From an uncultured Oscillospiraceae bacterium (lineage in GTDB: Bacteria > Bacillota > Clostridia > Oscillospirales > Oscillospiraceae): 39,471 nt of DNA. How positions within the stretch are numbered: the first letter of the stretch is position 1; the number at the start of each line of letters is the position of its first letter. The stretch is taken from NCBI GenBank assembly GCA_934590325.1, contig CAKTOW010000018.1, positions 1 to 39,471 of the forward strand, read 5' to 3'. The notes under the pieces are model-generated. The model was not told the origin of the DNA, made no database searches, and saw nothing but the letters and a program-made list of their open reading frames with translations. The translations under genes and the position numbers were made by a program. Shown in pieces: positions 10,256-37,731 of the stretch.

Positions 10256-10256
10256 A

Positions 10257-17986: not shown

Positions 17987-19108
17987 TTACTTGGCAGCCT
18001 TGGCAGCCTTGATGGACTCGATCAGCTCGGGAACGACCTTGAACAGATCGCCGACGATACCGTAGTCAGCCACCTCGAAGATGGGGGCGGTGTCGTTCTT
18101 GTTCACGGCGATGATGCACTCGGAATCCTGCATACCAGCCTTGTGCTGGATGGCGCCGGAGATACCCAGAGCGATGTAGACCTTGGGATGGACGGTCTTG
18201 CCGGTCTGGCCGACCTGATGGTCAGCGGAGATCCAGCCGGAGTCCACGCAGGCGCGGGAGGAACCCACGACGCCGCCCAGGACCTCAGCCAGCTCCTCGG
18301 CCAGCTTGATGCCGCCCTCCACGTCCTTGGAGATACCACGGCCAACGGACACGATGAAGTCAGCGCCGATCAGGTCAACCAGCTTCTTGGCGGCCTTAAC
18401 GGTATCCACGACCTCGGTCTTGATGTCAGCGGCTTCCAGAGCGAACGCGGGATGCAGGATCTCCACGTTCTTCTTGCACTCGCGCTTCTTCATAACGCCG
18501 GGGCGAACGGTCGCCATGGCGGGGCGGAAGCGGGGGCAGATGATGGAGGCCATCAGGTGACCGCCGAAAGCGGGACGGGTCATCTTCAGGTCGCGGGACA
18601 CGTCGTGGGGCTCGCGGTTGATCATCACGGTGCCCAGCTTCTCGATGCGCTCCTCGGGCAGAGTGGAGGCCTCGCGCAGGAAGCCCTTGTAGTTGGGCAT
18701 GTCGATGTCCAGGTGGGTGCAGTCCGCGCACAGACCGGTGTGCAGGCGGGCGGCGCAGCGGGGAGCCAGGTCACGGCCGATGTTGGAGGCGCCGAACAGC
18801 AGCACCTCGGGCTTCAGCTCCTCAACGGCCTCCACGATCACCTTGGTGTAGGCATCGGTGGTGAAGTCCTTCAGCAGGGGGGAGTTGTAGACGTACACCT
18901 TGTCGGCGCCGTACTCGCCCAGCTCGGCGGCGATGCCGTCCACGTTGTCGCCCAGCAGGATGCCGCACAGCTCGACACCCAGCTCATTGGCCAGCTTCCG
19001 GCCCTCGGAGATCAGTTCGAAGGTGGTGGGCATCATCACGCCCTGACGCTGCTCGCAGAACACCCATACGTTCTTGAAGGCAGCGGTATCAGCACTATTA
19101 AAAGCCAT
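17987..19108 (-). CDS. etfA: Electron transfer flavoprotein, alpha subunit
   Basis: A 373-residue EtfA, somewhat longer than the usual 330-340 because of about 20 extra residues at the N terminus. The C-terminal FAD domain is complete: SVGRGISKD, GSSRACVDSGW, DHQVGQTGKTV, YIALGISGAIQH, then AVNKNDTAPIFEVADYGIVG. With EtfB it passes electrons between NADH, ferredoxin and the acyl-CoA dehydrogenase encoded just upstream; in anaerobic Clostridia this complex commonly bifurcates, coupling enoyl-CoA reduction to ferredoxin reduction. The ATG at 19108 follows AAGGAAGGAG, 16 bp after the EtfB stop. It is the last gene of the operon. Confidence 0.96.
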   Translation of the reverse strand: MAFNSADTAAFKNVWVFCEQRQGVMMPTTFELISEGRKLANELGVELCGILLGDNVDGIAAELGEYGADKVYVYNSPLLKDFTTDAYTKVIVEAVEELKPEVLLFGASNIGRDLAPRCAARLHTGLCADCTHLDIDMPNYKGFLREASTLPEERIEKLGTVMINREPHDVSRDLKMTRPAFGGHLMASIICPRFRPAMATVRPGVMKKRECKKNVEILHPAFALEAADIKTEVVDTVKAAKKLVDLIGADFIVSVGRGISKDVEGGIKLAEELAEVLGGVVGSSRACVDSGWISADHQVGQTGKTVHPKVYIALGISGAIQHKAGMQDSECIIAVNKNDTAPIFEVADYGIVGDLFKVVPELIESIKAAKAAK

Positions 19109-19124
19109 TTTCTTTTCTCCTTCC

Positions 19125-19925
19125 TTAGATGATGTGCTTGGCGGCCAGGATGCCTGCCAGCTTGTCGGTGGTAGCCTTGTCAGCGCCCTCGAGCATCATG
19201 CCCGCGCCCTTCTGAGGAGGCGTGAAGGAGGTCAGAATGTTGGTGGGAGAACCGGCCAGACCGATAGTGCTCTTGTCGATCAGGGGGTGATCCTTCAGGG
19301 TCTCGTAGGTCATGGTGACCAGAGGCTTGCTGTAGCACTCGAACGCGCCGCCCACGGACAGGTAACGCGGGGTGTTCAGCTCCTTGATGCAGGTGATCAT
19401 GCAGGGGGTCTTGACCTTGATGGTCATGTAGCCGTCCTCCAGCATGCGCTTGACGGTCAGGGTGTTGCCGTCCTTGGTGATCTCGCCGGCATAGGTGACC
19501 TGGGGCAGATGCAGCTTCTCAGCGATCTGGGGGCCGACCTGGGCGGTATCGCCGTCGATGGCCTGACGACCGGCCAGAATGATGTCGTCATCCTCGATGC
19601 CGTAGGTGTCGATGGCGGCGGCGATGATCTGGGAGGTAGCGTAGGTGTCGGAGCCGCCGAACTCGCGGGCGGTGACCAGCACACCTTCGTCCACGCCCAT
19701 GGCCATCAGCTCACGCAGCATGCCCTCGGCGGGAGGGGGACCCATGGTAAACGCCACGACCTTGCAGCCCAGCTCGTCCCTCAGAGCCAGAGCGGCCTCA
19801 ACGGCGTTCAGGTCATCGGGGTTGATGATGGTCTGCATGGAAGCACGGTCCAGAGTACCATCGGGATTCACGGCCACCTTACCGGAGGTATCGGGAACCT
19901 GCTTTACAGTAACAAGAATCTTCAT
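19125..19925 (-). CDS. etfB: Electron transfer flavoprotein, beta subunit
   Basis: A 266-residue EtfB of normal length. It begins MKILVTVKQVPDTSG and has INPDDLNAVEAAL and the nucleotide-binding stretch GRQAIDGDTAQVGPQIAE. In Clostridia-type EtfB the equivalent region holds a second FAD used in bifurcation rather than AMP. This suggests, without proving, a bifurcating complex with EtfA and the acyl-CoA dehydrogenase. The ATG follows GAGGGAAGAG, and the gap to the dehydrogenase stop is 16 bp, so dehydrogenase, EtfB and EtfA form one translational block. Confidence 0.96.
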   Translation of the reverse strand: MKILVTVKQVPDTSGKVAVNPDGTLDRASMQTIINPDDLNAVEAALALRDELGCKVVAFTMGPPPAEGMLRELMAMGVDEGVLVTAREFGGSDTYATSQIIAAAIDTYGIEDDDIILAGRQAIDGDTAQVGPQIAEKLHLPQVTYAGEITKDGNTLTVKRMLEDGYMTIKVKTPCMITCIKELNTPRYLSVGGAFECYSKPLVTMTYETLKDHPLIDKSTIGLAGSPTNILTSFTPPQKGAGMMLEGADKATTDKLAGILAAKHII

Positions 19926-19941
19926 TGTCTCTTCCCTCCTC

Positions 19942-21081
<1,140 letters not shown>

Positions 21082-21117
21082 AGTCGTTCTCCTATTTTAT
21101 TCCTTAAAAGTGTTCGG

Positions 21118-21555
21118 TCACAAAGGCATCCAGCTGCCGCTGGCGGTGGCCAGCAGCTTGCCGGTGGCGGCGTCGGCCAGCTCCGCCCTCTGGCGGATCA
21201 GGCTGCGCCCTGCCTTGACGATGTAGACGGTGAGGTATACCTCCATGCCGTAGTCCACGCCCCGGAGGAAGGATACCGTCATATCCGTGGTGGTGGCTTC
21301 GTTGTCCCCGGCGGTGAAGTTCGCCACCACGCCGAAGGCGGTGTCGAACATCCCGGCGATAGCGCCGCCGTGGATGCCGCCCTTTTCGTTGATCTGCCAA
21401 CCCTGGGTGGGGAAGGCGTAGGTGACAGTCTGCGCCTCGTAATCGCAGTCCACCAGACGCGCCCGCATTTTCTCGTCAAAGCCGCCGTCGTGCAGGTGCA
21501 GATAGTGCTCCGACTTCTCCTGCACCAGCTGGAGCCACGCTTGCTTCTTGTCCAT
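21118..21555 (-). CDS. PaaI-type hotdog thioesterase
   Basis: A 145-residue single-hotdog protein with the PaaI-family signature GGIHGGAIAGMFDTAFG, where the Asp is the usual catalytic residue, and TTTDMTVSFLRGVDYG on the following strands. Such enzymes hydrolyse acyl-CoA thioesters. Its ATG lies 9 bp after the AbfD-like gene's stop. Within the operon it could release the free acid product, or clear stalled CoA intermediates to recycle CoA. No CoA-transferase or kinase is encoded in the window, which makes a product-releasing role plausible but unproven. Confidence 0.88.
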   Translation of the reverse strand: MDKKQAWLQLVQEKSEHYLHLHDGGFDEKMRARLVDCDYEAQTVTYAFPTQGWQINEKGGIHGGAIAGMFDTAFGVVANFTAGDNEATTTDMTVSFLRGVDYGMEVYLTVYIVKAGRSLIRQRAELADAATGKLLATASGSWMPL

Positions 21556-21564
21556 GCCGCTCTC

Positions 21565-23040
21565 TTACTTCTGGATACCGGCGATGTTCTTAGCCAGCTT
21601 CTTCTTGCCCTGAATGTTGCCCTGGCGGGCGATCATCACCCGCTGCGCCTGGGGCGAGCCTGCGCCGTGCATGGATTCCGTGCGGTAGCCAACAGCCGCG
21701 GCGCCCAGGCACATATTCTCCAGGAACCGCATCACCCTCTGGCGGTCCTCCGTGCTGACGCCCTCGCGGGCGGCGAAATACTTATTGCAGATCTCGCCGA
21801 TGGTCTCGCCGTTATTGCCCACCACGGTGTCGGAATTGAAGTCCGTCTCGCTGGGCATGGTGACCATCAGGCCGCCGGCGATGTCCTCCGCCAGACGCAC
21901 GATCTCATAGGGGAACCGAGTGACGTTCTGCTTGCAGACGTTGGCCAGCAGCAGGTCGATCTGGTAGTTGCCCGCCTTGGTGGGGCAGCCCTCGCAGGAG
22001 CAGGCGATGCCGCAGGAGTAGAGGGTCTCGTTGAGATGGGTCATCTCGATGAGCTTGTCCTTCACGGCGCTGGCCTTCTCCACGCCGTTGTACTCGGCGG
22101 CCAGAGCCGCCGCGCCGATGACCACGTCGCCCACGCCGACCTTGCAGCCGCCGTAGCTCTGGCGGTGGTAGCCGGCAAAGCGCTCCACGATGGTGCCGGC
22201 GAACTCATACTCGCCGTTGAGGAAGATGTACTCATTGGGGATAAACACGTGGTCGAGGACCACCAGTGCCTCCTGCCCGCCGAATTTGGCGTTGCCCACG
22301 TCGATGCAGCCCTCCTCCATCTTGCGGGTGTCGCAGGACTGGCGGCCGTAGATCATGTACAGGCCCTCGGCGTCGGTGGGGCAGGCGAAGGACACGGCGT
22401 AGTCCTTGTCGGCCTCGCCCATAGCGATGGTGGGCATGAAGATATGCCAGTGGCTGTTGATGGAGCCGGTCTGGTGGCATTTCGCGCCGCAGACCACAAT
22501 GCCGTCGGGGCGGCGTTCCACCACGTGGACGTACATATCGGGATCAGCCTGGTCATGGGGAGCCTTGGAGCGGTCGCCCTTGGGGTCGGTCATGGCGCCG
22601 TCCACGGTCAGATCGTTGTCCTGCACGTACACCAGGAACTTCTTGAAGTTCTCATGGTAATGGGTGCCATACTTCTCGTCGATCTCGTAGGTAGAGGAGA
22701 ACACGGCGTTGAAGGCGTCCATGCCCACACAGCGCTGGAAGCAGCTGGCGGTCTTCTGCCCCAGCAGGCGCTGCATTTTCACCTTCTTTACCAGATCGTC
22801 GGCGGACTGGTGGAGGTGGGTGAAGCGGTTGATCCTCCGCCCCGTCAGGTTGGAGGTGGCGGTCATCAGCTCCTCGTACCGGGGGTCCTGCGCCAGCGCG
22901 TAGGTCATCGCCACGCAGTTGATGGAGGGACGGATCATGGGGTGATCCACCCAGTTGTCGATCTTTTCGCCGAACATATACACGCGGGTGTTCAGCTTAC
23001 GCAGGGAGTCGATGTATTCTTTTGCAGTCATCAGTGCCAT
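21565..23040 (-). CDS. abfD: 4-hydroxybutyryl-CoA dehydratase / vinylacetyl-CoA delta-isomerase family enzyme
   Basis: A 491-residue [4Fe-4S]/FAD enzyme. In the Clostridium aminobutyricum protein the cluster is held by Cys99, Cys103, His292 and Cys299. Here the matching residues are Cys100 and Cys104 (ASCFQRCVGMD) and His292 and Cys299 (YHRQSYGGCK), with Tyr296 and Glu257 of the active site also present. It therefore looks catalytically complete rather than a related flavin monooxygenase. The reaction is radical-type removal of water from 4-hydroxybutyryl-CoA to give crotonyl-CoA. The usual partners (4-hydroxybutyrate dehydrogenase, 4-hydroxybutyrate CoA-transferase) are missing. The start follows AAGGAGG. 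A short relic of a second copy lies at 37732-37788. Confidence 0.93.
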   Translation of the reverse strand: MALMTAKEYIDSLRKLNTRVYMFGEKIDNWVDHPMIRPSINCVAMTYALAQDPRYEELMTATSNLTGRRINRFTHLHQSADDLVKKVKMQRLLGQKTASCFQRCVGMDAFNAVFSSTYEIDEKYGTHYHENFKKFLVYVQDNDLTVDGAMTDPKGDRSKAPHDQADPDMYVHVVERRPDGIVVCGAKCHQTGSINSHWHIFMPTIAMGEADKDYAVSFACPTDAEGLYMIYGRQSCDTRKMEEGCIDVGNAKFGGQEALVVLDHVFIPNEYIFLNGEYEFAGTIVERFAGYHRQSYGGCKVGVGDVVIGAAALAAEYNGVEKASAVKDKLIEMTHLNETLYSCGIACSCEGCPTKAGNYQIDLLLANVCKQNVTRFPYEIVRLAEDIAGGLMVTMPSETDFNSDTVVGNNGETIGEICNKYFAAREGVSTEDRQRVMRFLENMCLGAAAVGYRTESMHGAGSPQAQRVMIARQGNIQGKKKLAKNIAGIQK

Positions 23041-23059
23041 TTTCGTTTCCTCCTTAAAT

Positions 23060-23491
23060 TTACCGCATAGCTATCGTTATATCGCCGTTGGCCGCCCGTT
23101 CCTGATGAACGTACACTTCGGCAGCGCAAGTGACGATGGCTTTTTCTTTTTTCTCGGAAATGATATTTGCATGGATCTCAAGGGTGTCTCCCGGCAGGAT
23201 CTTTTTTCGGAAGCTCACCTTGTCAACGCCTAAAAGGAGCGGTGTTTTTCCGGCGTAGCGCGGTGTTGTCATCAGTAGGATATCTACCGCCTGCGCCATA
23301 CATTCTATAGAGTATACGCCCGGCAGTATCGGCTCCTCCAGGAAGTGTCCGCGGAATATATCCATCTCAGGAGATGCGAAAAAGGCGGCGCGGATATTCT
23401 CGCCGGGGCTCAAATCTTCTACCGATGTCACCAGAAGCATCGGTTCACGGTGCGGCAGGACCGTTTTGATCTCATCTTGATTCAGCTTCAT
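23060..23491 (-). CDS. FabZ-like hotdog dehydratase
   Basis: A 143-residue single-hotdog protein like 3-hydroxyacyl-ACP dehydratase FabZ. The catalytic His49 (FRGHF) and Glu63 (LPGVYSIECMAQA) are both present, and the N-terminal LPHREPMLLV matches the FabZ HRYPFLLVD strand. I place the start at the ATG at 23491, eight bases after the crotonase stop; the frame runs 29 codons further inside the crotonase gene with no similarity. Neither fatty-acid synthesis genes nor an acyl carrier protein are nearby, so here it may dehydrate or hydrate a CoA-bound hydroxyacyl intermediate of the opposite stereochemistry to the crotonase. Confidence 0.85.
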   Translation of the reverse strand: MKLNQDEIKTVLPHREPMLLVTSVEDLSPGENIRAAFFASPEMDIFRGHFLEEPILPGVYSIECMAQAVDILLMTTPRYAGKTPLLLGVDKVSFRKKILPGDTLEIHANIISEKKEKAIVTCAAEVYVHQERAANGDITIAMR

Positions 23492-23499
23492 AAGGCCGT

Positions 23500-24276
23500 T
23501 TACCTGTTCTGAAATTCGGCGGTACGTTTTTCCAGAAACGCGCCCATGCCCTCCTCCTGGTCGGCGGTGGCAAAGCACATGGCGAACAGCTCGTTCTCGC
23601 AGGCAATGCCGCCGTCAATATCCATCTGCATACCCCGGTCAATGCACGCCTTCGCGTATTTCACGGCGATGGGTGCGTTTTTCGCGAAGGAACGCGCCAT
23701 CTCCACCGCCCCGTCCAGCAGAGCTTCGGGGGCGTAGACCGCGTTGACAAGACCGATCCGCTCCGCCTCGTCCGCCTTGACCATTCTGCCGGAGAAGATC
23801 AGCTCCTTCGCCTTGGCGACGCCCACCCGCCGGGGCAGACGCTGGGTGCCGGAGAAGCCGGGGGTGATGCCCAGCCCCACCTCGGGCTGACCGAACTTCG
23901 CCTTCTCGGAGGCGAGGATAATGTCGCAGCTCATCGCCAGCTCACAGCCCCCGCCCAGCGCGAAGCCGTTCACGGCGGCGATGGTGGGGAATTCCAGCTT
24001 TTCCACGCGGCGGAACAGCGCGCTGCCCCGCTGTCCCCAGCGGCGGCCGCCGTCCAGATCCAGCGGGTACTGCTCCCCGATGTCGGCGCCGGCCACAAAG
24101 GAGCGGCCCTCGCCGGTGAGGATCATGGCGCGGACGGTGCCGTCATTTTCCAGCTCCGTCACCACCTGCTCCAATTCGGTGATGACCGTGCTGTTCAAAG
24201 CATTTAACGCCTCGGGACGGTCAATGGTCACGAGGGCGATATTATCCTGCTTTTCAAAATGAATCGTCTGATACAT
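23500..24276 (-). CDS. Enoyl-CoA hydratase (crotonase family)
   Basis: A 258-residue crotonase. The oxyanion and catalytic region is complete: [21 protein letters not shown] with Glu112, then [16 protein letters not shown] with Glu132, the two acids needed for hydration/dehydration. The likely reaction is interconversion of (S)-3-hydroxyacyl-CoA and trans-2-enoyl-CoA. The ATG at 24276 is preceded by AAGGAG; the longer frame from 24303 lacks support. It is followed within 8 bp by the FabZ-like gene. Together with the 4-hydroxybutyryl-CoA dehydratase, three distinct water-removing enzymes stand in a row. Confidence 0.93.
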
Positions 24277-24317
24277 GTGGATCATCTCCTTACGGCAATA
24301 CATTGTAGTGTAGAGTA

Positions 24318-24352
24318 GAAGGGGAACCGCCCGTTTAGAGCGATTCCCCTTC
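24318..24352. terminator. Intergenic hairpin between PFOR and crotonase genes
   Basis: GAAGGGGAA pairs with TTCCCCTTC across a 17-nt loop that can pair further. On the minus strand the stem is not followed by a good T-run. It more likely causes partial termination or protects an mRNA end within the operon than full termination. Confidence 0.5.
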
Positions 24353-24381
24353 TTTGATCGCTCAGTATACAGAATGAGGCT

Positions 24382-27300
24382 TTAGTTGTCTGCCGCCATC
24401 TTCTTATACTTGGCGTAACGTGCCTTCACGTCGGCAATCTCTTTGGCATAAAGCGCATCCGCCTTCTCAGGGAAGTTGTTCTTCAGTGCGGCGAAGCGGT
24501 TCTCGCCCATCAGGAAGTCCATCAGCTTATCGGTGTCAGGCTCGGGAGAATCCAGCTGGAAGGGGTTCTTGCCCTCGGCAATACGGCGGGGATCATAGCG
24601 GTACAGGTGCCAGTAGCCGCACTCCACCGCCTTCTTCATCTCCTCCTGAGAACTGCCCATACCAGCCTTGATGTGCTGCTCCAGACACGGGCAGTAGCAG
24701 ATCACAATGGACGGGCCGGGATAGGCCTCGGCTTCCCGCAGGGCTTTCAGTGTCTGGGCCTGATCGGCGCCCATGGCCACCTGCGCCACATACACATAGC
24801 CGTACTGCATCAGGATGCCGCCCAGATCCTTCTTTGCCACCTGCTTGCCGCCGGCGGAGAATTTCGCCGTGGCGCTGGTGGGCGTGGCCTTGGAGGACTG
24901 GCCGCCGGTGTTGGAATACACCTCGGTATCCAGCACCATCAGGTTCACATCACGGTTCTGGGCCATGACATGGTCGATACCGCCGAAGCCGATATCGTAG
25001 GCCCAGCCGTCGCCGCCCACAGCCCAGACGGACTTCTTGGCCAGATATTCTCTGTTTTCAAGGATGTATTTCACGTCCTCCGTCTGCTCGGCCTTTTCCA
25101 GAGCGGCCAGCAGCGCGTCTGTGACGGTGCGGGAGGTCTCGTGCTTGTTCCACCCGTTCTGGTATGCCTCCACAGCCTCCGCGGCAATACCCGCGGACTT
25201 GATGGCGTCCAGACGGATCAGCAGCTCCTTGCGGATGGCGTCCTGCGCGTGGAAGAAGCCGTAGGCAAACTCAGCATTGTCCTCGAACAGGGAGTGCTCC
25301 CATGCGGGGCCGTGGCCGTGGCAGTCCCTGCAGTAGGGCAGGATGGGCGCGCCGCCGCTGATGGCGGAGGAGCAGCCTGCGGCGTTGCCCACATACATGT
25401 GGTCGCCGAACAGCTGGCTCAGGAGCTTGATATATGTCGTCTCGGCGCAGCCTGCGCAGGCGGCGGAGAACTGGAAGTAGGGCTTGGCGAACTGCACGTT
25501 CTTCACGCTCTTATCGCTGATGACGTCCTTCTTCAAATAGGTCTCGTTCATGGCCACCTGATCAAACAGCGGCTGCTCGGCTTTCATCTCCTCGAAGGGA
25601 GCCATGGTCAGTGCGCCCTTGGCGGGACAGGCCGTCAGGCAGACGCCGCAGCCCAGACAGTCGTAGGGGGAGATCTGCATACGGAAGCCGTAAGCGGGTG
25701 CGTCCTTGCCCAGACCCTTGGCCGGTGCGGTGACAAACCCGGCGGGAACCTGCGCCTTCTCCTCTTCGGTCAGTAGCACTGGACGGATGGCGGCATGGGG
25801 GCAGCTCATGGCGCAGCGGTTGCACTGGATGCACGCCGCCGGGTCCCACCTGGGAACGGCGGTGGCAACGCCGCGCTTGGAGAAGGCGGAGGTGCCGTTC
25901 TCCCACGTGCCGTCCAGCACACCGTGCTTCTGGAACACGGACACGGGAAGCTTGTCGCCCTGCTGGCGATCCATGGGGAGGACGATGTCCTTGACGAAGG
26001 GCGTGGCATTGATCTCGGCGGCAGGCGCGTCCTGCGCCGCTGCCCACGCGGCGGGGATCTCCACCTTCACGGCGGCGTGGATACCCACGTCCACCGCCTT
26101 GTCGTTCAGATCCACGATCTTCTGTCCCGCCTTCTTAAAGTAGGTGGCGTAATTGTTCTTCTTCATATCCGCCACGGCAACGTCCATGGGGATGACCTTC
26201 GTCAAGGCGAAGAACGCGCCCTGCAGGATGTTGTTGGTGTGCTTGCCCAGCCCCACCTCCGCCGCCAGCTTTGCGGCGTCGATGATGTAGAAGTTGGCGT
26301 GCTTCGCGGCAAGATCGCGCTTCATCTTGGCGGGGAGCCGCGTCTCCAGCTCCTCCACCGACCACGGGCAGTTCAGCAGGAACGTGCCGCCGTCCTTCAG
26401 ATCCTCCGTGAGATCGTACTTCTTCACATAGGTGGGCGCGTGGCAGGCTACGAAATCGGCAGAGGACACCAGATAGGTGCTGCGGATAGGCGTGTCCCCG
26501 AAGCGCAGATGGCTTTGGGTCAGGCCGCCGGATTTCATGGAGTCATAGGAGAAGTACGCCTGTGCGTACTTCTCCGCCACAAGCCCGATGGTGCTGATGG
26601 CGTTCTTGTTGGCGCCCACGGTGCCGTCGCCGCCCAGACCCCAGATCTTGCAGGAAATCTCACCGGGATGGTGGAACTCCACATTTTCATAGTCCAGAGA
26701 GGTATGGGTCACGTCGTCGTTGATGCCGATGGTAAAGCTGTTCTTGGGAGTCTCCTGCCGCAGGTTGTCGTACACGGCGATCAGCTGGCCGGGGGTGGTA
26801 TCCTTGCTGGACAGGCCGTAGCGGCCGCCCACCACGCGGATGTCGCCGCGACCTGCCTGATTCAGCGCCGTTACCACGTCCAGATACACAGGCTCGCCCA
26901 CGGAGCCGGTCTCCTTGCTGCGATCCAGCACGGCAACCTTCTTGACTGTGGCGGGAATAGCGGCAGAGAAGTCAGGCACGGAGAAGGGGCGGTACAGATG
27001 GATCTGCACCATGCCCACCTTGCGGCCCTGCGCGTTGAGGTAGTCCACCGTCTCCCGCAGAGCCTCGGTGACGGAGCACATGGCCACGACTACCTCCTCG
27101 GCGTCGGGCGCGCCGTAGTAGTTGAACAGCTTGTAATCGCGGCCCGTCAATTTGTTGATCTCGTCCATGTAGTGCTGCACCGTTCCGGGCACGATGGCAG
27201 ACTTAACGTTGGCACCCTCCTTGCACTGGAAGTACACGTCGGGGTTGACGTTGTTGCCGCGGTTGGTGGGGTGCTCTGGGTTCAGGGACTGGCGGCGGAA

Positions 27301-27909
27301 ATCCCGCAGCGCGTCCTGATCCAGCAGGGGCCGCAGCTCCTCATAGTCCAGCGCTTCGATACGCTGCATCTCGTGAGAGGTGCGGAAGCCGTCGAAGCAG
27401 TGCATAAAGGCGTACTTTGCCTTGATAGCGGACAGGTGCGCCACCGCCGCCAGATCCATGGCCTCCTGAGGGGAGGAGGACATCAGCATGGCGTAGCCGG
27501 TGGTGCGGCAGGTCATAAAGTCCGTGTGGTCACCGAAAATGGAGTGGTGGTTGCTGGTGACCACGCGGGAGGCGATATGCATGACGCTGGGGAGGAACTG
27601 ACCGCCCATGGCGTACATCGCCGGGATCATCAGCATCAAGCCCTGCGAGGAGGTAAAGGTGGTGGTCAGGGCACCCGCCTGCAGGGAGCCGTGACAGGTG
27701 CCGGCGGCACCCGCCTCGGACTGCATCTGGATCACGTCCACCGGCGTGCCGAACAGGTTCTTTTTCCCCTTGGCGGACCACTCGTCCACCTTCTCCGCCA
27801 TGGGGGAGGACGGCGTGATGGGATAGATCGCCGCCACCTCGGTAAAGGCATAGGCAGAATGGGCGGCGGCGGTATTGCCGTCCATGACAACATAATTTTT
27901 CTTACTCAT
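24382..27909 (-). CDS. Pyruvate:ferredoxin (flavodoxin) oxidoreductase family, operon-specific paralogue
   Basis: A 1,175-residue single-chain 2-oxoacid:ferredoxin oxidoreductase. Features in order: YPITPSSPMAE, GDH of the substrate domain, two ferredoxin clusters (CIQCNRCAMSCP, CLGCGVCLTACP), the proximal cluster Cys pair (CAGCAETTY), and thiamine diphosphate binding (GDGWAYDIGFGG, DTEVYSNTGGQSS). It oxidatively decarboxylates a 2-oxo acid to an acyl-CoA with reduced ferredoxin. Near the substrate Arg it reads SNHHSIFGDHTDFM where the second PFOR of this window has the canonical SAHALSIFGDHSDVM, so its substrate may not be pyruvate. The ATG at 27909 follows GAGAGG; the frame extends 6 codons further. 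Confidence 0.93.
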   Translation of the reverse strand: MSKKNYVVMDGNTAAAHSAYAFTEVAAIYPITPSSPMAEKVDEWSAKGKKNLFGTPVDVIQMQSEAGAAGTCHGSLQAGALTTTFTSSQGLMLMIPAMYAMGGQFLPSVMHIASRVVTSNHHSIFGDHTDFMTCRTTGYAMLMSSSPQEAMDLAAVAHLSAIKAKYAFMHCFDGFRTSHEMQRIEALDYEELRPLLDQDALRDFRRQSLNPEHPTNRGNNVNPDVYFQCKEGANVKSAIVPGTVQHYMDEINKLTGRDYKLFNYYGAPDAEEVVVAMCSVTEALRETVDYLNAQGRKVGMVQIHLYRPFSVPDFSAAIPATVKKVAVLDRSKETGSVGEPVYLDVVTALNQAGRGDIRVVGGRYGLSSKDTTPGQLIAVYDNLRQETPKNSFTIGINDDVTHTSLDYENVEFHHPGEISCKIWGLGGDGTVGANKNAISTIGLVAEKYAQAYFSYDSMKSGGLTQSHLRFGDTPIRSTYLVSSADFVACHAPTYVKKYDLTEDLKDGGTFLLNCPWSVEELETRLPAKMKRDLAAKHANFYIIDAAKLAAEVGLGKHTNNILQGAFFALTKVIPMDVAVADMKKNNYATYFKKAGQKIVDLNDKAVDVGIHAAVKVEIPAAWAAAQDAPAAEINATPFVKDIVLPMDRQQGDKLPVSVFQKHGVLDGTWENGTSAFSKRGVATAVPRWDPAACIQCNRCAMSCPHAAIRPVLLTEEEKAQVPAGFVTAPAKGLGKDAPAYGFRMQISPYDCLGCGVCLTACPAKGALTMAPFEEMKAEQPLFDQVAMNETYLKKDVISDKSVKNVQFAKPYFQFSAACAGCAETTYIKLLSQLFGDHMYVGNAAGCSSAISGGAPILPYCRDCHGHGPAWEHSLFEDNAEFAYGFFHAQDAIRKELLIRLDAIKSAGIAAEAVEAYQNGWNKHETSRTVTDALLAALEKAEQTEDVKYILENREYLAKKSVWAVGGDGWAYDIGFGGIDHVMAQNRDVNLMVLDTEVYSNTGGQSSKATPTSATAKFSAGGKQVAKKDLGGILMQYGYVYVAQVAMGADQAQTLKALREAEAYPGPSIVICYCPCLEQHIKAGMGSSQEEMKKAVECGYWHLYRYDPRRIAEGKNPFQLDSPEPDTDKLMDFLMGENRFAALKNNFPEKADALYAKEIADVKARYAKYKKMAADN

Positions 27910-27923
27910 ATTCCTCTCAACTT

Positions 27924-28721
27924 TCAATGTTCGCCGTGGAAGGCGGCAATGTCAGCTTTTGCCATATTCATAAAAATCGCCGTATCGCAGGAATAGCCGA
28001 TGAACTTCACGCCCATCTCCAGCAGCTTGCGGCCGGACTCGGCAGAGTCAGCGAAGCAGCCCACCTGCACACCCTTCGCGGCAGCCTTTTGTACAATCTG
28101 CGCGATCCGCTCCATGACCAGAGGATGGGTGATCTGCCCGATGATGCCCAGAGAGGCGGACAGATCGTAAGGCCCTACGAACACGATGTCCACGCCTTCG
28201 ACACTGAGGATGTCATCCAGATTGTCGATGGCCTTTTGACCCTCGGCCTGAAGGATCACCACGGTGTCCTGCGCCTTTGCGAAGTAGTCCGCGCCGGGAA
28301 CGCCGCCATAGGCGGCGGAACGGACAAAGCGGCAGGTGCCACGGGTGCCGCGGGGAGAGAATTTCGCGGCGGACACAGCGGCGCGCGCCTGATCGGCACT
28401 GTCAATCTGGGGGATCATAACTGCACCGGCACCAACGTCCAGCGCCTGATCGATCCAGATATCCGTCCCACGGGGAACGCGCACCACGGGGCAGGCGCCC
28501 GCCACGTTGGCGGCGCGGATCAGATTCTGCAGATTTTCAAATGTGCCGGGGCCATGTTCCATATCCAGCAACACAAAATCATATCCGGCGTAACCGGCAG
28601 CCTCCACAAAGGCGGGGTCGGAGGTAATCATAAAGGGGCCGAAAGCACCCTGCTCCGATGCCATGGCAGCCTTGAAGTTCTTAACGCTTTCCAATGTCGG
28701 CATAGTAACGTTTCTTTCCAT
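27924..28721 (-). CDS. HpcH/HpaI-family class II aldolase
   Basis: A 265-residue TIM-barrel aldolase/citrate-lyase family protein. Visible active-site residues are Asp53-x-Glu55-His56 (LLDMEHGP), Arg81 (VVRVPRG), and the metal ligands Glu160 (ILQAEG) and Asp186 (FVGPYDLSASLG), with the spacing seen in HpaI. Members cleave or form 4-hydroxy-2-oxo acids with pyruvate as one partner. The ATG follows AGGAGG. It lies between an aminotransferase and the 2-oxoacid oxidoreductase gene (15-bp gap), so it probably acts on the 2-oxo acid made by the aminotransferase or supplies a hydroxylated one. The aldehyde partner cannot be deduced. Confidence 0.88.
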   Translation of the reverse strand: MERNVTMPTLESVKNFKAAMASEQGAFGPFMITSDPAFVEAAGYAGYDFVLLDMEHGPGTFENLQNLIRAANVAGACPVVRVPRGTDIWIDQALDVGAGAVMIPQIDSADQARAAVSAAKFSPRGTRGTCRFVRSAAYGGVPGADYFAKAQDTVVILQAEGQKAIDNLDDILSVEGVDIVFVGPYDLSASLGIIGQITHPLVMERIAQIVQKAAAKGVQVGCFADSAESGRKLLEMGVKFIGYSCDTAIFMNMAKADIAAFHGEH

Positions 28722-28824
28722 AATAATTCCTCCTAAGCAAATCGTTTTGATACATAAAGAAAAGCGGCGACTGTGTCAGCTATTCTATTATGCAGCCGTT
28801 TTTCGTGGGGGGGTGGCGGCATTT

Positions 28825-30000
28825 TTACTTCATATCGGGGTACGCCTTGCGGACGTAGGCGTCAATGCGGCGGACGGCTTCCTTCAGGTTCTCGTCGGAG
28901 TTGGCGAACACAAGACGCAGATATCCCTCGCCGCAGGCGCCGAAGGCGGAGCCAGGCACGGTGACAACACCGGCGCCCACCAGCAGCTCCTCGGCGAACT
29001 CCTGAGAGGTCTTGCCGAAAGCTTTGATGTTGGCGAAGGCGTAAAAGCTGCCTGCGGACTTCTTGCAGCTGAAGCCGGGAATGGCATTGATGCCGTCAAT
29101 CAGGATATCCCGGCGGCGGGTATAATCGGCCACCATCTGCTCCACGCACTCGGTGCTCTTCAGCGCCTCGGCGGCGGCTACCTGAGAGAAGGAGGACACG
29201 CAGGAGGCAATGGCCTCGTTCATCTGCGCCATCTTCTTGACACAGGCAGGGTCGGGAGCGATGACATAGCCCACACGCCAGCCGGTCATGGCATAGGACT
29301 TGGAGAAGCTATTCAGCACGAACACACGGTCACGGACCTCCGGCACCTGAGCGATACTGAAAGGCGTTACACTGTCATAGACGATGCTGTCATAAGGCTC
29401 GTCGGACAGCACCCACAGGTCATGCTTCTTCACCACCTCGGCGATGGCCAGAATGTCCTCCTTGGTCAGCACCGCGCCGGTGGGGTTACAGGGAGAATTC
29501 AGCAGCAGTGCTTTGGTGTGGGGCGTGATGCACTTCTCGATATCCGCCGCCATCATACGGTAGTCGTTGTCCTCATAGGTGGGCACAGGCTTGGCGCACG
29601 CGCCGGTGAGGGACGCCTGGCCGTAATAGTTGGGGAAACAGGGATCGGGCACCAGGATCTCATCGCCGGGATCCAGCAGCAGCATCATGGTCAGCATCAG
29701 GCCTTCCATAGCGCCCACGGTGACCATCACATGGTCGGCGGTGTAGCCGTCCCAGTGGCTCTTCTGATACCTCTCCGCCACCGCCTGACGCAGCACGGTC
29801 ATACCGGCGTTGGGGGTATAGTGGGTCTCACCGGCGTCCATGGCCTTTTTGGCGGCCTCCTTGATATAGTCGGGAGTATCAAAGTTGGGCTCACCTACCG
29901 TCAGCTTGATGGCGTCCGGATATTGGGTCGCCAGATCGAACATCTTGCGGATGCCGGAGGGCGGGTAATTCCGCGCTGCCTTGGAAAATCCTCTGTTCAT
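28825..30000 (-). CDS. PLP-dependent class I/II aminotransferase (aspartate aminotransferase superfamily)
   Basis: A 391-residue fold-type I aminotransferase: the TVGEPNFDTP N terminus, HYTPNAGM, LLNSPCNPTGAVL, SDEPYDSIVY, the Schiff-base Lys234 in SFSKSYAMTGWRVGY and the late Arg in GYLRLVFANS. It converts an amino acid to its 2-oxo acid, usually with 2-oxoglutarate as acceptor. The ATG at 30000 follows GAAAGGATG; six upstream codons are left out. It is second in the operon after the symporter, which makes it the likely first chemical step on the imported amino acid. Family members range from Ala/Asp to aromatic substrates, so the specificity is open. Confidence 0.92.
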   Translation of the reverse strand: MNRGFSKAARNYPPSGIRKMFDLATQYPDAIKLTVGEPNFDTPDYIKEAAKKAMDAGETHYTPNAGMTVLRQAVAERYQKSHWDGYTADHVMVTVGAMEGLMLTMMLLLDPGDEILVPDPCFPNYYGQASLTGACAKPVPTYEDNDYRMMAADIEKCITPHTKALLLNSPCNPTGAVLTKEDILAIAEVVKKHDLWVLSDEPYDSIVYDSVTPFSIAQVPEVRDRVFVLNSFSKSYAMTGWRVGYVIAPDPACVKKMAQMNEAIASCVSSFSQVAAAEALKSTECVEQMVADYTRRRDILIDGINAIPGFSCKKSAGSFYAFANIKAFGKTSQEFAEELLVGAGVVTVPGSAFGACGEGYLRLVFANSDENLKEAVRRIDAYVRKAYPDMK

Positions 30001-30032
30001 AATTGTACATCCTTTCAATTGATTTCTTGGTC

Positions 30033-30069
30033 GAGACTCCGCCCTGGCACAGCGCCAAGGCGGAGTCTC
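30033..30069. other. Strong intergenic hairpin between symporter and aminotransferase genes
   Basis: GAGACTCCGCC pairs perfectly with GGCGGAGTCTC, with a second inner TGGC/GCCA pairing. No T-run follows on the minus strand, so it is unlikely to terminate fully. Such hairpins often mark mRNA processing or stabilise the upstream message. Confidence 0.6.
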
Positions 30070-30119
30070 TCAGAAGAGGAAAGTGGAAAAGAGAAATGGT
30101 ACCAGTGGAAATATAAGGC

Positions 30120-31538
30120 TTAGTCTTTGGGTGCCAGCTCAGGGATCTTGGCAACAGATTCTTCGTTGGTCTTTTCCCACTTGCCGGACTTCACGCGGGC
30201 CTTGTAGTCCTTAATGGTTGCCCAGACCTGCTTGCGCATGGCAATGCAAAGGAACAGGTTGCACACAGCACAAACACCGAAGAAGAAGTCAAACAAGTTC
30301 CACAGCACACTCAGAGCGCCCACAGAACCGATAACGGCAAAGGCGCAGCCCAGCAGACGGTAAGGAATGGCAATTTTGTCCAGCTTCAGCGCGCTGAGGC
30401 AGATCTCACCGTAGTAGATGTTGACCAGCGCGGTGGTAAAGCCGAAAAAGGCAATGATAACGGAAACAAAGATGGTACCGATAGCCTGATTGCCAATGGC
30501 GGAACCGAAGGCAAGGGAGGTCAGAGCCGCACCGGAGGCGCCGTTGTCCCACACGCCGGAGCACAGAACCACCAGAGCAGTCATGGAACAAACAACGATG
30601 GTGTCAACAAACACCTCGGTAATGCCCCACAAGCCCTGCTTGGCAGGATGGTTGGCGTTGGAGGAGGAGTGCGCCAGGGGAGCCATACCGGTGCCCGCCT
30701 CATTGGAGTACACGCCTCGGGCAAGGCCCCAGCGGACAGCCAGCATCACCGTGGAACCGAGGAAACCTCCAGAGGCAGCGGTCGGAGTAAACGCACCCTG
30801 GAAAATCATGCCGAAAGCGCCGGGAATGTTCTTTGCATTGATAACCAGGATGATGATGGAAACGATGGTATAGGCCAACGCCATGAAAGGAACAACGATC
30901 TCAGCAAAGCGGGAAATGCTCTTCAGTCCACCCATCAGCACAGCCATCAGCAACACGGCAATGATAATGCCGATGATAATCGGCTTGACGTCAAAGTAGG
31001 AGTTAATGGCGCTGACAATAGAGTTGGACTGCACTGCGGGCGCAAATACCATGGCACACGCCAGAATGACAGCCCACAGCACACCGAGCCAGGTCCAGTG
31101 CTTACCAAGGCCTTTACGCACAGTCCAGTAGAAGCCGCCGTGCCACACGCCGGTGACAGGGTCCTTCTCACGGTAAGCCATGCCCAGCGTGATTTCAGTA
31201 AACTTCACAATCAGTCCCATCAGCGCCACAGCCCACATCCAGAAGATGGAGCCGGGGCCACCGGTGGCGATAGCCACGGAAACGCCCGCGATATTTCCTA
31301 CACCCAGCGTAGAGGCCAGCGCTGTACAGCACGCCTGGAAGGGGGAAACATTTCCCTCACCGTGTTCGCTCTTCTCGAAAATCTTGCCGAGGGTGTTCTT
31401 CAGAGAATGGCCGAAGAAGGTGAACTGGAATCCATGGTACTTAATGGTCAGCACAACGGCAACGAACACCGTCAGGATCAGTAGAGGCCAGCCCCAAAGC
31501 CAATTGGAAATAGCCATCATTGCGTTAATAATAAACAT
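30120..31538 (-). CDS. Sodium:alanine/glycine symporter family protein (AgcS/AGCS)
   Basis: A 472-residue membrane protein of usual AGCS length with about eleven hydrophobic segments. The family hallmark STLGVGNIAGVSVAIATGG is present near residue 75, followed by the FWMWAVALMGLIVKFTEITL helix and GVYSNEAGTGMAPLAHS in the second half. It should import a small neutral amino acid with sodium; alanine and glycine are the known substrates of the family, but others are possible. The ATG at 31538 follows AAGGAGAG. It is the first gene of the operon, after a 5' leader of about 200 nt in which I see no riboswitch. Confidence 0.92.
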   Translation of the reverse strand: MFIINAMMAISNWLWGWPLLILTVFVAVVLTIKYHGFQFTFFGHSLKNTLGKIFEKSEHGEGNVSPFQACCTALASTLGVGNIAGVSVAIATGGPGSIFWMWAVALMGLIVKFTEITLGMAYREKDPVTGVWHGGFYWTVRKGLGKHWTWLGVLWAVILACAMVFAPAVQSNSIVSAINSYFDVKPIIIGIIIAVLLMAVLMGGLKSISRFAEIVVPFMALAYTIVSIIILVINAKNIPGAFGMIFQGAFTPTAASGGFLGSTVMLAVRWGLARGVYSNEAGTGMAPLAHSSSNANHPAKQGLWGITEVFVDTIVVCSMTALVVLCSGVWDNGASGAALTSLAFGSAIGNQAIGTIFVSVIIAFFGFTTALVNIYYGEICLSALKLDKIAIPYRLLGCAFAVIGSVGALSVLWNLFDFFFGVCAVCNLFLCIAMRKQVWATIKDYKARVKSGKWEKTNEESVAKIPELAPKD

Positions 31539-31742: not shown

Positions 31743-31771
31743 ATTATTGCTGTTTCCTACAGAAATGTCAA
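31743..31771 (-). promoter_or_regulatory. Sigma-A promoter of the symporter/AbfD operon
   Basis: On the minus strand TTGACA (31766-31771) and AATAAT (31743-31748) are separated by 17 bp. The -35 is perfect and the -10 good. Transcription should start near 31735 and give a leader of about 200 nt before the symporter ATG. Confidence 0.65.
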
Positions 31772-31869
31772 TCCCCTATTCTGACAAAAAAATTATTGTT
31801 ATGTATTGCAAAATGACTAAAAGCAAGTTATTATGTAGCTATATTTTCATAATGCGGAAAGGAATTGTC

Positions 31870-32643
31870 ATGAAGGATAGCAACGGTTCTGTTCAATCCA
31901 TTGATCGTGTATTAGACATTCTTGAAACACTCTCAGCCGCACCGCAGGGACTCACACTGTCAGATGTGGCGGCAGCCACCTCTTTGCATGCGAGCACTGC
32001 ACACCGACTTTTGGCCTCGCTTGCAAACAGAGGCTATGTAAGAAAAGACGCAGAAAATGGGAAGTATCGTTTAACGCTTCGGCTCTATGAAATATCCCGC
32101 CGAGTCTCGACCGTATTGAATCTTTTTTCAGCCTCTAAACCTTTGCTGGAAAAGCTGTCCAATGATGTCAAGGAGATTGTGCATCTGGTGGAGCGCGACG
32201 GAAACGAGGTCGTTTATCTCCACAAATTTGAGCCGCTTCTCCGCCCCATCAGCATCACATCATCTGTCGGACTGCACAACCCTATGTACTGCACCGGCGT
32301 GGGCAAGAGCATCATGGCCTACCTGCCGGAGAAGGAGGTGCGCGCCATCTGGGACGGCACACAGGTCATTCCGTTCACCCCCAAGACCATCACCACATGG
32401 GAGGCCCTGCAGGAGGATCTATCCTGCGTCCGTGAGAGGGGCTATGCCATCGACGATGAGGAGCACGATTTGGGGGTTCGGTGCATCGCTGCCCCCATCT
32501 ATAATTGGAACGGAACGCCTGTGGGCGCTATGAGTATTTCTGGCTCCGTAGCCAGAATGAACTCCGCCGCGATAGATGAATTTTCACCCAAGCTCAAAAG
32601 CACCGCTGGGAAGATCAGCGAGCTGATGGGCTGGCATGCGTGA
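31870..32643 (+). CDS. IclR-family transcriptional regulator
   Basis: A 257-residue IclR-type regulator. Residues 8-70 form the winged helix-turn-helix (QSIDRVLDILETLS, LTLSDVAAATSLHASTAHRL, RGYVRKD). The rest is the ligand-binding domain, with PMYCTGVGKSIMAYLP and the late RCIAAPIYNWNGTPVGAMSISG. The ATG at 31870 follows AAAGGA; the reading frame is open 41 codons further upstream but without a ribosome site. It is transcribed divergently from the symporter/AbfD operon, the classic position for an IclR regulator of a catabolic operon. The effector is probably the substrate or an early intermediate. Confidence 0.92.
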   Translation: MKDSNGSVQSIDRVLDILETLSAAPQGLTLSDVAAATSLHASTAHRLLASLANRGYVRKDAENGKYRLTLRLYEISRRVSTVLNLFSASKPLLEKLSNDVKEIVHLVERDGNEVVYLHKFEPLLRPISITSSVGLHNPMYCTGVGKSIMAYLPEKEVRAIWDGTQVIPFTPKTITTWEALQEDLSCVRERGYAIDDEEHDLGVRCIAAPIYNWNGTPVGAMSISGSVARMNSAAIDEFSPKLKSTAGKISELMGWHA

Positions 32644-33785: not shown

Positions 33786-33821
33786 AGGAAACCCTTCTTT
33801 CTGCAAAATTACTTCTCAGCA

Positions 33822-33961: not shown

Positions 33962-34135
33962 GATTTTTGATATCTCTACCGGCGCGGCGGGTCGGCACGG
34001 CGATGTGCACAAGCGAACACTTTCTGCATTGTGAAAAACATACAAAAAGGGATACTCTCAGGAAAAACAGAGAAAATTCCTGTCGCCGGAAACGGTGGTA
34101 TAAGAAAACGTGAAGCGGCAATTCGAATATCGTGA

Positions 34136-34165
34136 TTGGCCTATGGCAGAAAAGTCCGCTATAAT
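34136..34165 (+). promoter_or_regulatory. Promoter of the second PFOR gene
   Basis: A perfect TATAAT (34160-34165) with a weak TTGGCC -35 element 18 bp upstream, about 60 bp before the PFOR ATG. A weak -35 fits activation by the divergent LysR protein. The divergent region 33852-34135 holds no gene. Confidence 0.5.
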
Positions 34166-34226
34166 CGGGACAAAGACCAAGGGCGCGCTGCGCTGCATGG
34201 GATTACGTAATGAAGGAGAGTACATT

Positions 34227-37730
<3,504 letters not shown>

Positions 37731-37731
37731 A

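Follow-up and report, generated by a model that had tools for sequence, protein, structure and literature searches.

An eleven-gene run on the minus strand of the window (the whole 39,471-nt stretch of DNA analysed, from an uncultured Oscillospiraceae bacterium) has, in our judgement, an even chance of encoding a linear fermentation route from a hydroxy-2-oxo acid to butyryl-CoA, and sequence comparison supports the view that its PFOR-family oxidoreductase is a paralogue of its own, whose substrate pocket is altered and more polar. All eleven genes named in the initial annotation, in the order given there, were recovered between 17987 and 31538, with families assigned by profile matches and intergenic gaps no longer than about 120 bases; they presumably form one operon read as a single transcript (Table 1). 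Conservation of this exact gene order, which had been proposed as a check, was found in none of the other loci read, and the genome G001 splits the set between separate loci, with aldolase, crotonase and dehydrogenase genes in L003 and aminotransferase and AbfD genes in L042. Genes in the fetched loci were called from codon bias, with the window as training set; this method misses genes in A+T-rich loci, which was corrected with tblastn. Several neighbour annotations are based on one representative per cluster.

Table 1. Features of the operon and its surroundings in the window
Feature	Position	Strand	Basis or remark
EtfA (AcrA equivalog)	17987..19108	-	AcrA model 654 vs cut-off 600
EtfB (AcrB equivalog)	19125..19925	-	AcrB model 491 vs cut-off 475
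Short-chain acyl-CoA dehydrogenase (butyryl-CoA dehydrogenase / AcrC type)	19942..21081	-	Best NCBIfam model AcrC
4HBT-fold thioesterase	21118..21555	-	Family match
AbfD, 4-hydroxybutyryl-CoA dehydratase / vinylacetyl-CoA isomerase	21565..23040	-	910 bits to 1u8v; four Fe-S ligands
FabZ-like (FabA/FabZ-like) hotdog 3-hydroxyacyl dehydratase	23060..23491	-	Family match
Crotonase / short-chain enoyl-CoA hydratase	23500..24303	-	Family match
PFOR-family 2-oxoacid:ferredoxin oxidoreductase, 'HH' group	24382..27909	-	TIGR02176 1643.6 bits, cut-off 911
HpcH/HpaI class II pyruvate aldolase	27924..28721	-	PF03328
Class I aminotransferase	28825..30000	-	PF00155
Na+:alanine/glycine symporter (AgcS family)	30120..31538	-	PF01235; TIGR00835 405.6 bits vs cut-off 272.65
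Promoter-like site, best on minus strand ahead of operon	31743..31771	-	TTGACA-17-AATAAT, 11/12; consensus match only
IclR-family regulator	31747..32643	+	Divergent from operon; shares 63% identity with its divergent counterpart at the related L003 operon
Second PFOR, canonical, outside operon	34110..37730	+	ATG start probably at 34227; serves as control for the altered pocket within the window

The divergent IclR gene and the second, canonical PFOR gene were absent from the gene list of the initial annotation. The antisense minus-strand ORF at 34203-37739, opposite the canonical PFOR gene, matched no Pfam or NCBIfam family. The LysR protein encoded at 32907-33806 and the one encoded beside the PFOR gene of L055 are 27% identical and not orthologous.

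The operon PFOR passes TIGR02176 and has the PFOR domain set, and the listed source names of its group members carry the name of the pyruvate enzyme. It has His128 and Asn226 at the positions of Leu121 and Ala219 of D. africanus PFOR, a pair present in all 20 rows of the group (18 distinct sequences, two rows being repeats). In the D. africanus enzyme, positions 121 and 219 line the pyruvate methyl group (PMC5020499); at the four positions of the narrow methyl pocket (Leu121, Ala219, Ile843 and Asn996), the operon enzyme has His, Asn, Ala and Asn, with Ala at 843 also found in five of seven other PFORs and position 219 variable among those seven. In an unrooted tree of 27 proteins, a long branch with support 1.0 separates the operon type from the other seven, and 76 alignment columns carry a residue that is fixed in the group and absent from the other seven. 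With at most two candidates scored per genome, the group proved rare: within one family, six of the 300 genomes had it (84-87% identity, the next best match being 61%), and in the order it was found in 4 of 295 genomes. Each of the 11 group-bearing genomes tested has at least one more PFOR match, and in the window the canonical PFOR lies only 6 kb from the operon enzyme. Because this canonical PFOR exists, a housekeeping role for the operon PFOR was rejected as the simplest account. The operon PFOR is probably a specialised enzyme rather than the housekeeping pyruvate enzyme, and its substrate is probably a 2-oxo acid hydroxylated at C4. Group members are present in Intestinibacillus sp. Marseille-P6563 (L146) and Pseudoflavonifractor sp. 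MSJ-37 (L134), which are isolates by strain name, so the enzyme should be directly assayable.

The neighbours of the PFOR group point in the same direction. Among 16 places, a crotonase gene adjoins the group PFOR in five (the window, L003, L133, L134 and L136) and a galactarate-dehydratase-like gene directly precedes it in three (L137, L146 and L147); in L018 such a gene precedes the aldolase gene, and FabZ lies on the same stretch as the group PFOR in the window, L003 and L018. No HpcH/HpaI aldolase was found at E ≤ 1e-20 in the genomes of L137, L146 and L147 (G162, G632 and G769), a search that proves little alone, its control being that the same query matched seven of nine genomes in another search. 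Crotonase neighbours, or galactarate-dehydratase neighbours without an aldolase match, are expected for an enzyme acting on a 4-hydroxy-2-oxo acid. The linear set of L003 (oxidoreductase-crotonase-dehydrogenase-EtfB-EtfA-aldolase plus FabZ) lacks AbfD. Against the preferred explanation, neither a crotonase nor an aldolase or galactarate-type dehydratase gene lies near the group member of L135 (a 39% identical IlvD homologue lies 7.6 kb on), and the aldolase and sugar-acid dehydratase neighbours could also point to pyruvate as the substrate. The idea of the aldolase as a constant partner of the group was weakened when G162, G632, G769 and G243 gave no aldolase match; of the nine places with both genes, all but the window were found through an aldolase search, which accounts for eight. 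The operon aldolase itself is a predicted HpcH/HpaI class II enzyme by its PF03328 match and its His56 and Arg81 (presumably catalytic) and Glu160 and Asp186 (presumably metal-binding), which are invariant in 14 sequences.

The operon AbfD matches 1u8v, the structure of 4-hydroxybutyryl-CoA dehydratase with Fe-S ligands Cys99, Cys103, His292 and Cys299, over residues 3-489, and its own Cys100, Cys104, His292 and Cys299 are invariant in seven aligned AbfD-like proteins. Judged by whole-length similarity and these four ligands, it is a true AbfD; identity as an HpaB monooxygenase was rejected because all Fe-S ligands are present and the best monooxygenase scored 119 bits against 910 for 1u8v. 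The remark in the initial annotation that the dehydrogenase and the CoA-transferase feeding AbfD are both missing was borne out, tblastn giving no match to Fe-ADH, three kinds of CoA-transferase, thiolase, HBD or BKACE in the 39-kb window at E ≤ 1e-3. Among 35 AbfD loci from the family of G001, picked from the matches listed by identity and contig size and not at random, AbfT and/or Fe-ADH accompany 20, while HBD, BKACE or thiolase occur in 13; all 35 lack the combination of aminotransferase and oxidoreductase, which counts against the preferred explanation. AbfD at 88% identity or more occurs in five of six PFOR-group genomes and in 8 of 300 genomes overall, a co-occurrence that we did not count as independent evidence because both may mark one lineage. 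A crotonase next to AbfD is also expected in the classical dismutation of crotonyl-CoA, and this adjacency was counted against the preferred explanation.

In the proposed route, a 2-oxo acid would pass through a hydroxyacyl-CoA and an enoyl-CoA to a saturated acyl-CoA, most likely butyryl-CoA. The symporter and aminotransferase would import an amino acid and convert it to the 2-oxo acid itself or to pyruvate for the aldolase; either a dehydratase or the pyruvate aldolase would be the source of the 4-hydroxy-2-oxo acid. The oxidoreductase would then turn the C4-hydroxylated 2-oxo acid into a 3-hydroxyacyl-CoA and reduced ferredoxin, the 3-hydroxyl would be taken off by crotonase and FabZ and the 4-hydroxyl by AbfD, the double bond would be reduced by the acyl-CoA dehydrogenase with EtfAB, and the thioesterase would release the final acyl group; here we infer all substrates, the direction of the aldolase and the end product. 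A hydroxy-2-oxo-acid route was already suggested in the initial annotation and stands in part, favoured by the changed-pocket paralogue, the crotonase and dehydratase neighbours and a recurring gene trio described below, and disfavoured by the canonical pockets in L055, L042 and L043; the substrates named there, 5-hydroxy- and 4-hydroxy-2-oxopentanoate, fared less well, the argument for them being purely chemical. A detailed version, which we consider unlikely, would have the operon make butyrate from alanine and a two-carbon aldehyde through 2-keto-3-deoxypentonate: alanine would give pyruvate, to which the aldolase would add glycolaldehyde to form 4,5-dihydroxy-2-oxopentanoate; the His/Asn-pocket oxidoreductase would yield 3,4-dihydroxybutyryl-CoA, FabZ/crotonase 4-hydroxycrotonyl-CoA, dehydrogenase/Etf 4-hydroxybutyryl-CoA, AbfD crotonyl-CoA and dehydrogenase/Etf again butyryl-CoA. 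Among the readings found, this version alone gives every enzyme a step in sequence, and its balance is exact when glutamate dehydrogenase does the recycling (alanine + glycolaldehyde = butyrate + CO2 + NH3).

Plain alanine fermentation is the strongest rival, a real possibility although short of an even one. AgcS import and the aminotransferase would lead to pyruvate, the operon oxidoreductase would be a regulated pyruvate isozyme, and AbfD, the dehydrogenase and Etf would form a butyrate electron sink, with 4-hydroxybutyrate and crotonyl-CoA coming from genes elsewhere. The symporter family, the TIGR02176 score far over its cut-off and the AbfT and/or Fe-ADH genes in 20 of the 35 AbfD loci read elsewhere are all consistent with it. 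The company of the aminotransferase bears on the question as well. Relatives at least 65% identical (L055, 78%; L052, 68%; L092, 67%) accompany AbfD and a 2-oxoacid oxidoreductase in all three other loci found, and this trio recurs with three kinds of oxidoreductase, AbfD standing in one run with an aminotransferase and non-orthologous oxidoreductases (single chain or PorGAB) in L042, L043, L055, L092 and L052, the last of which additionally encodes a dehydrogenase with Etf, an enoyl-CoA hydratase and a fragment of a CoA-transferase. The trio was seen in 3 of 11 AbfD loci from one search (L042, L043 and L052) and the aminotransferase-oxidoreductase arrangement in none of the 35 picked AbfD loci, with L055 and L092, which came from aminotransferase searches, left out of these frequencies; among the 35, PorG, PorA and PorB adjoin AbfD in L112 and a PFOR lies about 5 kb off in L122, both without the aminotransferase. 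Eight aminotransferase loci comprise three with an oxidoreductase and AbfD (L052, L055 and L092), two with PFOR and BrnQ without AbfD (L093 and L094) and three without AbfD or an adjacent oxidoreductase (L056, L095 and L096, the last with a 26% PorA match 3.4 kb on). Conversion of alanine to pyruvate remains a serious rival because the trio PFORs of L055, L042 and L043 have unchanged, canonical pockets. In L055, the 78% identical aminotransferase and an 88% identical AbfD accompany a PFOR that has the canonical pocket and shares 81% identity with the canonical PFOR of the window; in L094, a more distant aminotransferase is found with AgcS, a PFOR of canonical pocket and a BrnQ transporter. The operon aminotransferase has Met at what we take to be the Lys109 position of Thermus AspAT, with Glu beside it; because this Glu also occurs in alanine aminotransferases, no substrate was deduced from the pocket. 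However, alanine fermentation would call for a second PFOR with fixed pocket changes only 6 kb from a canonical one, the window holds no homologue of thiolase, HBD, CoA-transferase or Fe-ADH, and the crotonase beside the oxidoreductase (5 of 16 places) and FabZ are left unexplained.

A route to propionate from homoserine, or from some other C4 hydroxy acid, is, in our view, very unlikely. The aminotransferase would give 4-hydroxy-2-oxobutanoate, which the aldolase would trim or make from pyruvate and formaldehyde, the oxidoreductase would yield 3-hydroxypropionyl-CoA and the crotonase acryloyl-CoA, and the AcrC-like dehydrogenase with the AcrAB-type Etf would form propionyl-CoA. EtfA and EtfB do score above the equivalog cut-offs of AcrA and AcrB, the best model for the dehydrogenase is AcrC, and class II aldolases of the HpcH/HpaI family can act on 4-hydroxy-2-oxobutanoate. 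The dehydrogenase, however, scores 527 bits against an AcrC cut-off of 640, so that two of the three AcrCBA subunits exceed their NCBIfam cut-offs; it shares 86-90% identity with the dehydrogenases that neighbour AbfD in L046, L047, L049 and L050, whose substrate should be crotonyl-CoA; and AbfD would be left without a role. The specific route of the initial annotation would have 5-hydroxynorvaline transaminated and decarboxylated straight to a 4-substituted butyryl-CoA as the AbfD substrate; by analogy it can be extended to other 5-substituted amino acids, with a 5-amino or 5-guanidino group, such as ornithine or arginine. This reading is likewise very unlikely. The five AbfD runs with non-orthologous oxidoreductases, including the extended one of L052, fit it, but to our knowledge 5-hydroxynorvaline is not an abundant substrate and no AbfD acts on amines, there would be no task for the aldolase or FabZ, and the PFOR pockets of L055, L042 and L043 are canonical.

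Gut butyrate routes are usually counted as four (acetyl-CoA, glutarate, 4-aminobutyrate and lysine), with AbfD as the marker of the 4-aminobutyrate route. If AbfD is fed by a 2-oxoacid oxidoreductase, this marker rule is broken and genomes are misassigned; the operon would be a short new butyrate route in a gut bacterium, and the PFOR group with its remodelled pocket would be a new enzyme activity under a pyruvate-enzyme name. In a literature search at abstract level, with subscription journals thinly covered, we recognised no description of such an operon or oxidoreductase.

Several known systems resemble parts of the operon. As in 4-aminobutyrate/4-hydroxybutyrate fermentation, there is an AbfD of the same family and a butyryl-CoA dehydrogenase type enzyme with Etf; whereas the genes of Clostridium aminobutyricum are AbfD-AbfT-AbfH, the window lacks AbfT, AbfH and any other CoA-transferase or Fe-ADH, and the operon has an aminotransferase, an aldolase and a PFOR-like enzyme instead. 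The AcrCBA acryloyl-CoA reductase complex belongs to the alanine fermentation of Anaerotignum (Clostridium) propionicum; EtfA and EtfB pass its models, but the dehydrogenase falls below that of AcrC and no lactate or lactoyl-CoA enzyme is among the NCBIfam matches listed for the 30 window proteins scanned. The operon PFOR shares its whole length, domain set and the equivalents of Thr31, Arg114 and Asn996 with the D. africanus/Moorella PFOR (TIGR02176), but its group is separate, with Leu121 replaced by His and Ala219 by Asn, and is never the sole PFOR match in the 11 genomes tested. Non-phosphorylative pentose and sugar-acid pathways, which proceed through 2-keto-3-deoxy acids, share the HpcH/HpaI aldolase family with the operon and sugar-acid-type dehydratases, GntP-family permeases and LarA-type isomerases with its relatives; the window operon has no sugar-acid dehydratase, and in three relatives the PFOR-like enzyme replaces the expected aldolase or kinase. 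If the unlikely version through a 2-keto-3-deoxypentonate is true, the group would comprise the first 2-keto-3-deoxy-acid:ferredoxin oxidoreductases, which would be a new means of taking sugar acids to acyl-CoA without an aldolase.

The gene calls of the eleven-gene run were confirmed by comparison with Pfam and NCBIfam models and PDB sequences, from which the families of the operon genes were assigned. The window comprises 39,471 bases with a G+C content of 58% and contains no tRNA gene and no Rfam family at the gathering score. The operon AbfD scored 910 bits against 1u8v and 119 bits against the best monooxygenase, and alignment revealed all four AbfD cluster ligands in the operon protein and six relatives; judged from its sequence, the gene encodes a true 4-hydroxybutyryl-CoA dehydratase. 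Searching with tblastn revealed no match in the window to Fe-ADH, three types of CoA-transferase, thiolase, HBD, or BKACE. Between the IclR gene and the operon lies a candidate promoter, recognized by its consensus match and the best such site for the operon strand. Elsewhere the window encodes a P-type metal ATPase, a series of small genes including methyltransferase-like and lipase-like ones (several without an NCBIfam match), and another class I aminotransferase-like protein, whose top NCBIfam model, GntC, gave 152 bits, far under the cut-off of 415. A tyrosine recombinase of the phage-integrase family is encoded near the canonical PFOR, the second PFOR-family gene of the window, and the locus may adjoin a mobile element.

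Locations of the features discussed, in the window and in loci of other genomes (L handles)
Feature	Location	Strand	Remarks
Operon	31538 down to 17987	minus	eleven genes; intergenic gaps at most about 120 bases
IclR gene	31747-32643	plus	divergent from, and facing, the operon
Canonical PFOR	34110-37730	plus	motif scan; TIGR02176, 1835.7 bits; about 2.5 kb past the operon start side
Antisense ORF over canonical PFOR	34203-37739	minus	1178 aa; no Pfam or NCBIfam family match
Tyrosine recombinase	38034-39233	plus	
Aminotransferase-like gene	11839-13089	minus	
Small genes	2934-10285	minus	
P-type metal ATPase	157-2253		
Conserved five-gene run	L137:4296-12147; L146:5890-13760; L147:5058-13287		
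Glycyl radical enzyme and activase	L028:10843-14190		
PFOR with Met-Trp	L048:3109-6687		
AbfD run	L108:3157-10794		also in L116
AbfD, PorG, PorA, PorB homologues	L112:9460-14559		no aminotransferase

The operon oxidoreductase is 62% identical to the canonical PFOR of the window. In PMC5020499, the carboxylate binders of D. africanus PFOR are given as Thr31 and Arg114, and the wall of its narrow pyruvate pocket as Leu121, Ala219, Ile843, Asn996, and Met1202. We placed the N-terminal pocket positions by alignment to 6cin, with an offset of 2 set by Thr31 and Arg114 and without D. africanus letters, and the C-terminal positions by alignment to 1b0p. Both window enzymes retain the carboxylate binders and Asn996. 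The canonical PFOR also retains Leu121, while the operon enzyme, of the HH type, has His at positions 120 and 121 and Asn at position 219. His121 and Asn219 were present in all 20 HH-type proteins (18 distinct, as two pairs are identical) of a 27-protein alignment, the seven others having Leu (six) or Trp (one) at position 121 and Thr (five), His (one), or Ala (one) at position 219. In the unrooted tree of these 27 proteins a long branch (support 1.0) separated the HH type from the other seven, a comparison set that samples canonical variation thinly; 76 alignment columns are fixed in the HH type with residues that those seven lack. In locus L048, the PFOR beside a second AbfD (59% identical to that of the window) and a dehydrogenase carries Met-Trp at positions 120-121 of the pocket, and is possibly another specialised oxidoreductase.

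HH-type matches were found at 84-87% identity in 6 of 300 genomes sampled from the family of genome G004, with the next matches at 61% or less, and at 82-87% in 4 of 295 sampled from the order, both counts being lower bounds because scoring was limited to two candidates in each genome. The two samples overlap; their union comprises eight distinct HH genomes, in all of which the type was confirmed from sequence. The 11 HH genomes tested have two to six PFOR matches each including the HH gene, so at least one other is always present (in genome G071 it spans residues 4-928 of 1166). Source names among the best 120 relatives listed included Dysosmobacter, Pseudoflavonifractor, Butyricicoccus, Intestinibacillus, Agathobaculum, and Oscillibacter, and the HH motif was present in all seven listed relatives whose sequence was inspected.

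The surroundings of the HH enzyme were read at 16 distinct places (the window, L003, L004, L005, L009, L011, L012, L014, L018, L133-L137, L146, and L147). Crotonase adjoins it in five (the window, L003, L133, L134, and L136), and an HpcH/HpaI aldolase is on the same stretch in nine, namely the window and eight from the aldolase search. The eight genomes reached via the oxidoreductase gave crotonase in three, dehydratase in three, an aldolase/IlvD/GntP set in one, and none of these close by in one (L135); three of these places are on contigs shorter than 7 kb, where part of the neighbourhood may be lacking. The HH enzyme closes a run shared by L137, L146, and L147, which begins with a LarA-like isomerase and continues with a GntP-family permease, an SAF subunit, and a galactarate-dehydratase-like subunit; the same order in L018 is interrupted by an aldolase between the dehydratase-like subunit and the HH enzyme. 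The isomerase of L146 and L018 belongs to nickel-pincer group 22 (NCBIfam), and those of L137 and L147 were named by 48-50% identity to that of L018. The L146 HH protein is the same as that in Intestinibacillus sp. Marseille-P6563, and a DHDPS-family gene adjoins the run in L147. The HpcH/HpaI aldolase query, which covers this one aldolase family, found no match at E ≤ 1e-20 in the genomes carrying these three runs (G162, G632, and G769) or in G243; as a control, the same query matched seven of nine genomes. Relatives of the window aldolase were found at thirty loci among genome contigs, titled mostly Oscillibacter, Dysosmobacter, or Oscillospiraceae, the nearest (80%) being in a Bacillota genome from water buffalo. 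In L028, a glycyl radical enzyme of the PFL2/dehydratase group and its activase adjoin a 53% identical aldolase; the enzyme scored 571 bits against the HypD model (cut-off 1100), and no equivalog model was above cut-off.

Galactarate-class dehydratases yield 2-oxo-3-deoxy acids with a hydroxyl at carbon 4. Oxidative decarboxylation of a 4-hydroxy-2-oxo acid by the HH enzyme would give a 3-hydroxyacyl-CoA, on which crotonase and FabZ act. The dehydratase before, the crotonase after, and the polar pocket are all accounted for by the single assumption of a hydroxy-2-oxo acid substrate, to which the neighbours and pocket thus point. The L003 set (oxidoreductase-crotonase-dehydrogenase-EtfB-EtfA-aldolase, plus FabZ and a 63% identical IclR) is complete for such a route and has no AbfD. 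Pyruvate released by the aldolase would, as HH substrate, account for the aldolase places but leave the crotonase neighbours unexplained, and the dehydratase-only places fit pyruvate only if the dehydratase yields it; related enzymes releasing pyruvate, such as sulfolactate lyase, exist.

The exact eleven-gene order, whose conservation the initial annotation had raised, was absent from every other locus read. AbfD itself is common, matching at E ≤ 1e-150 in 136 of 296 genomes from the family of genome G001 and 33 of 300 from that of G004. Among 35 hand-picked AbfD loci, 20 had AbfT and/or Fe-ADH, 13 had HBD, BKACE, or thiolase without those, and two had neither set; none had the trio of aminotransferase, 2-oxoacid oxidoreductase, and AbfD. 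Aminotransferase searches of 300 and 296 genomes gave eight loci, and the three closest to the window aminotransferase (at least 65% identity) were exactly those with AbfD and an oxidoreductase: L055 (78%; PFOR-AbfD-aminotransferase), L052 (68%; AbfD-dehydrogenase-EtfB-EtfA-PorG-PorA-PorB-aminotransferase-enoyl-CoA hydratase-CoA-transferase fragment), and L092 (67%; PorG-PorA-PorB-AbfD-aminotransferase). Two of the other five (49-61%), L093 and L094, had PFOR and BrnQ. L042 (36%) and L043 have the order AbfD-aminotransferase-PFOR. The trio thus recurs, as a minority arrangement, with oxidoreductases of different kinds. Other AbfD contexts included a sigma-54 factor gene and its activator divergent from the AbfD operon in L046, L047, L049, and L050, suggesting a dedicated circuit; crotonase and CoA-transferase within that operon in L046, L049, and L050 (PF01144 checked in L050); an uncommon run in L108 and L116, where AbfD is grouped with a 2-hydroxyacyl-CoA dehydratase pair and its activator as well as FabZ, HBD, and crotonase; and AbfD followed by Por homologues in L112.

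The trio loci bear on a simpler reading, in which alanine is converted via pyruvate to acetyl-CoA and AbfD belongs to a butyrate sink supplied from elsewhere. The PFORs of L055, L042, and L043 have the canonical pocket, that of L055 being 81% identical to the canonical PFOR of the window, and the operon symporter is of the alanine type, fitting alanine uptake. Because these pockets and this symporter fit an alanine route, the reading keeps an appreciable, though less than even, chance. The earlier proposal that an oxidoreductase rather than a CoA-transferase feeds the acyl-CoA steps gained moderate support, but the substrates it named, 5-hydroxy-2-oxopentanoate and 4-hydroxy-2-oxopentanoate, did not.

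In the literature searched, we recognized no description of an HH-type oxidoreductase or of the hydroxy-2-oxo acid route proposed here. PMC6336799 has 2-keto-3-deoxypentonate converted either to pyruvate and glycolaldehyde or to 2-oxoglutarate. A route through the same compound in the present operon would employ every operon enzyme, with the balance alanine + glycolaldehyde = butyrate + CO2 + NH3.
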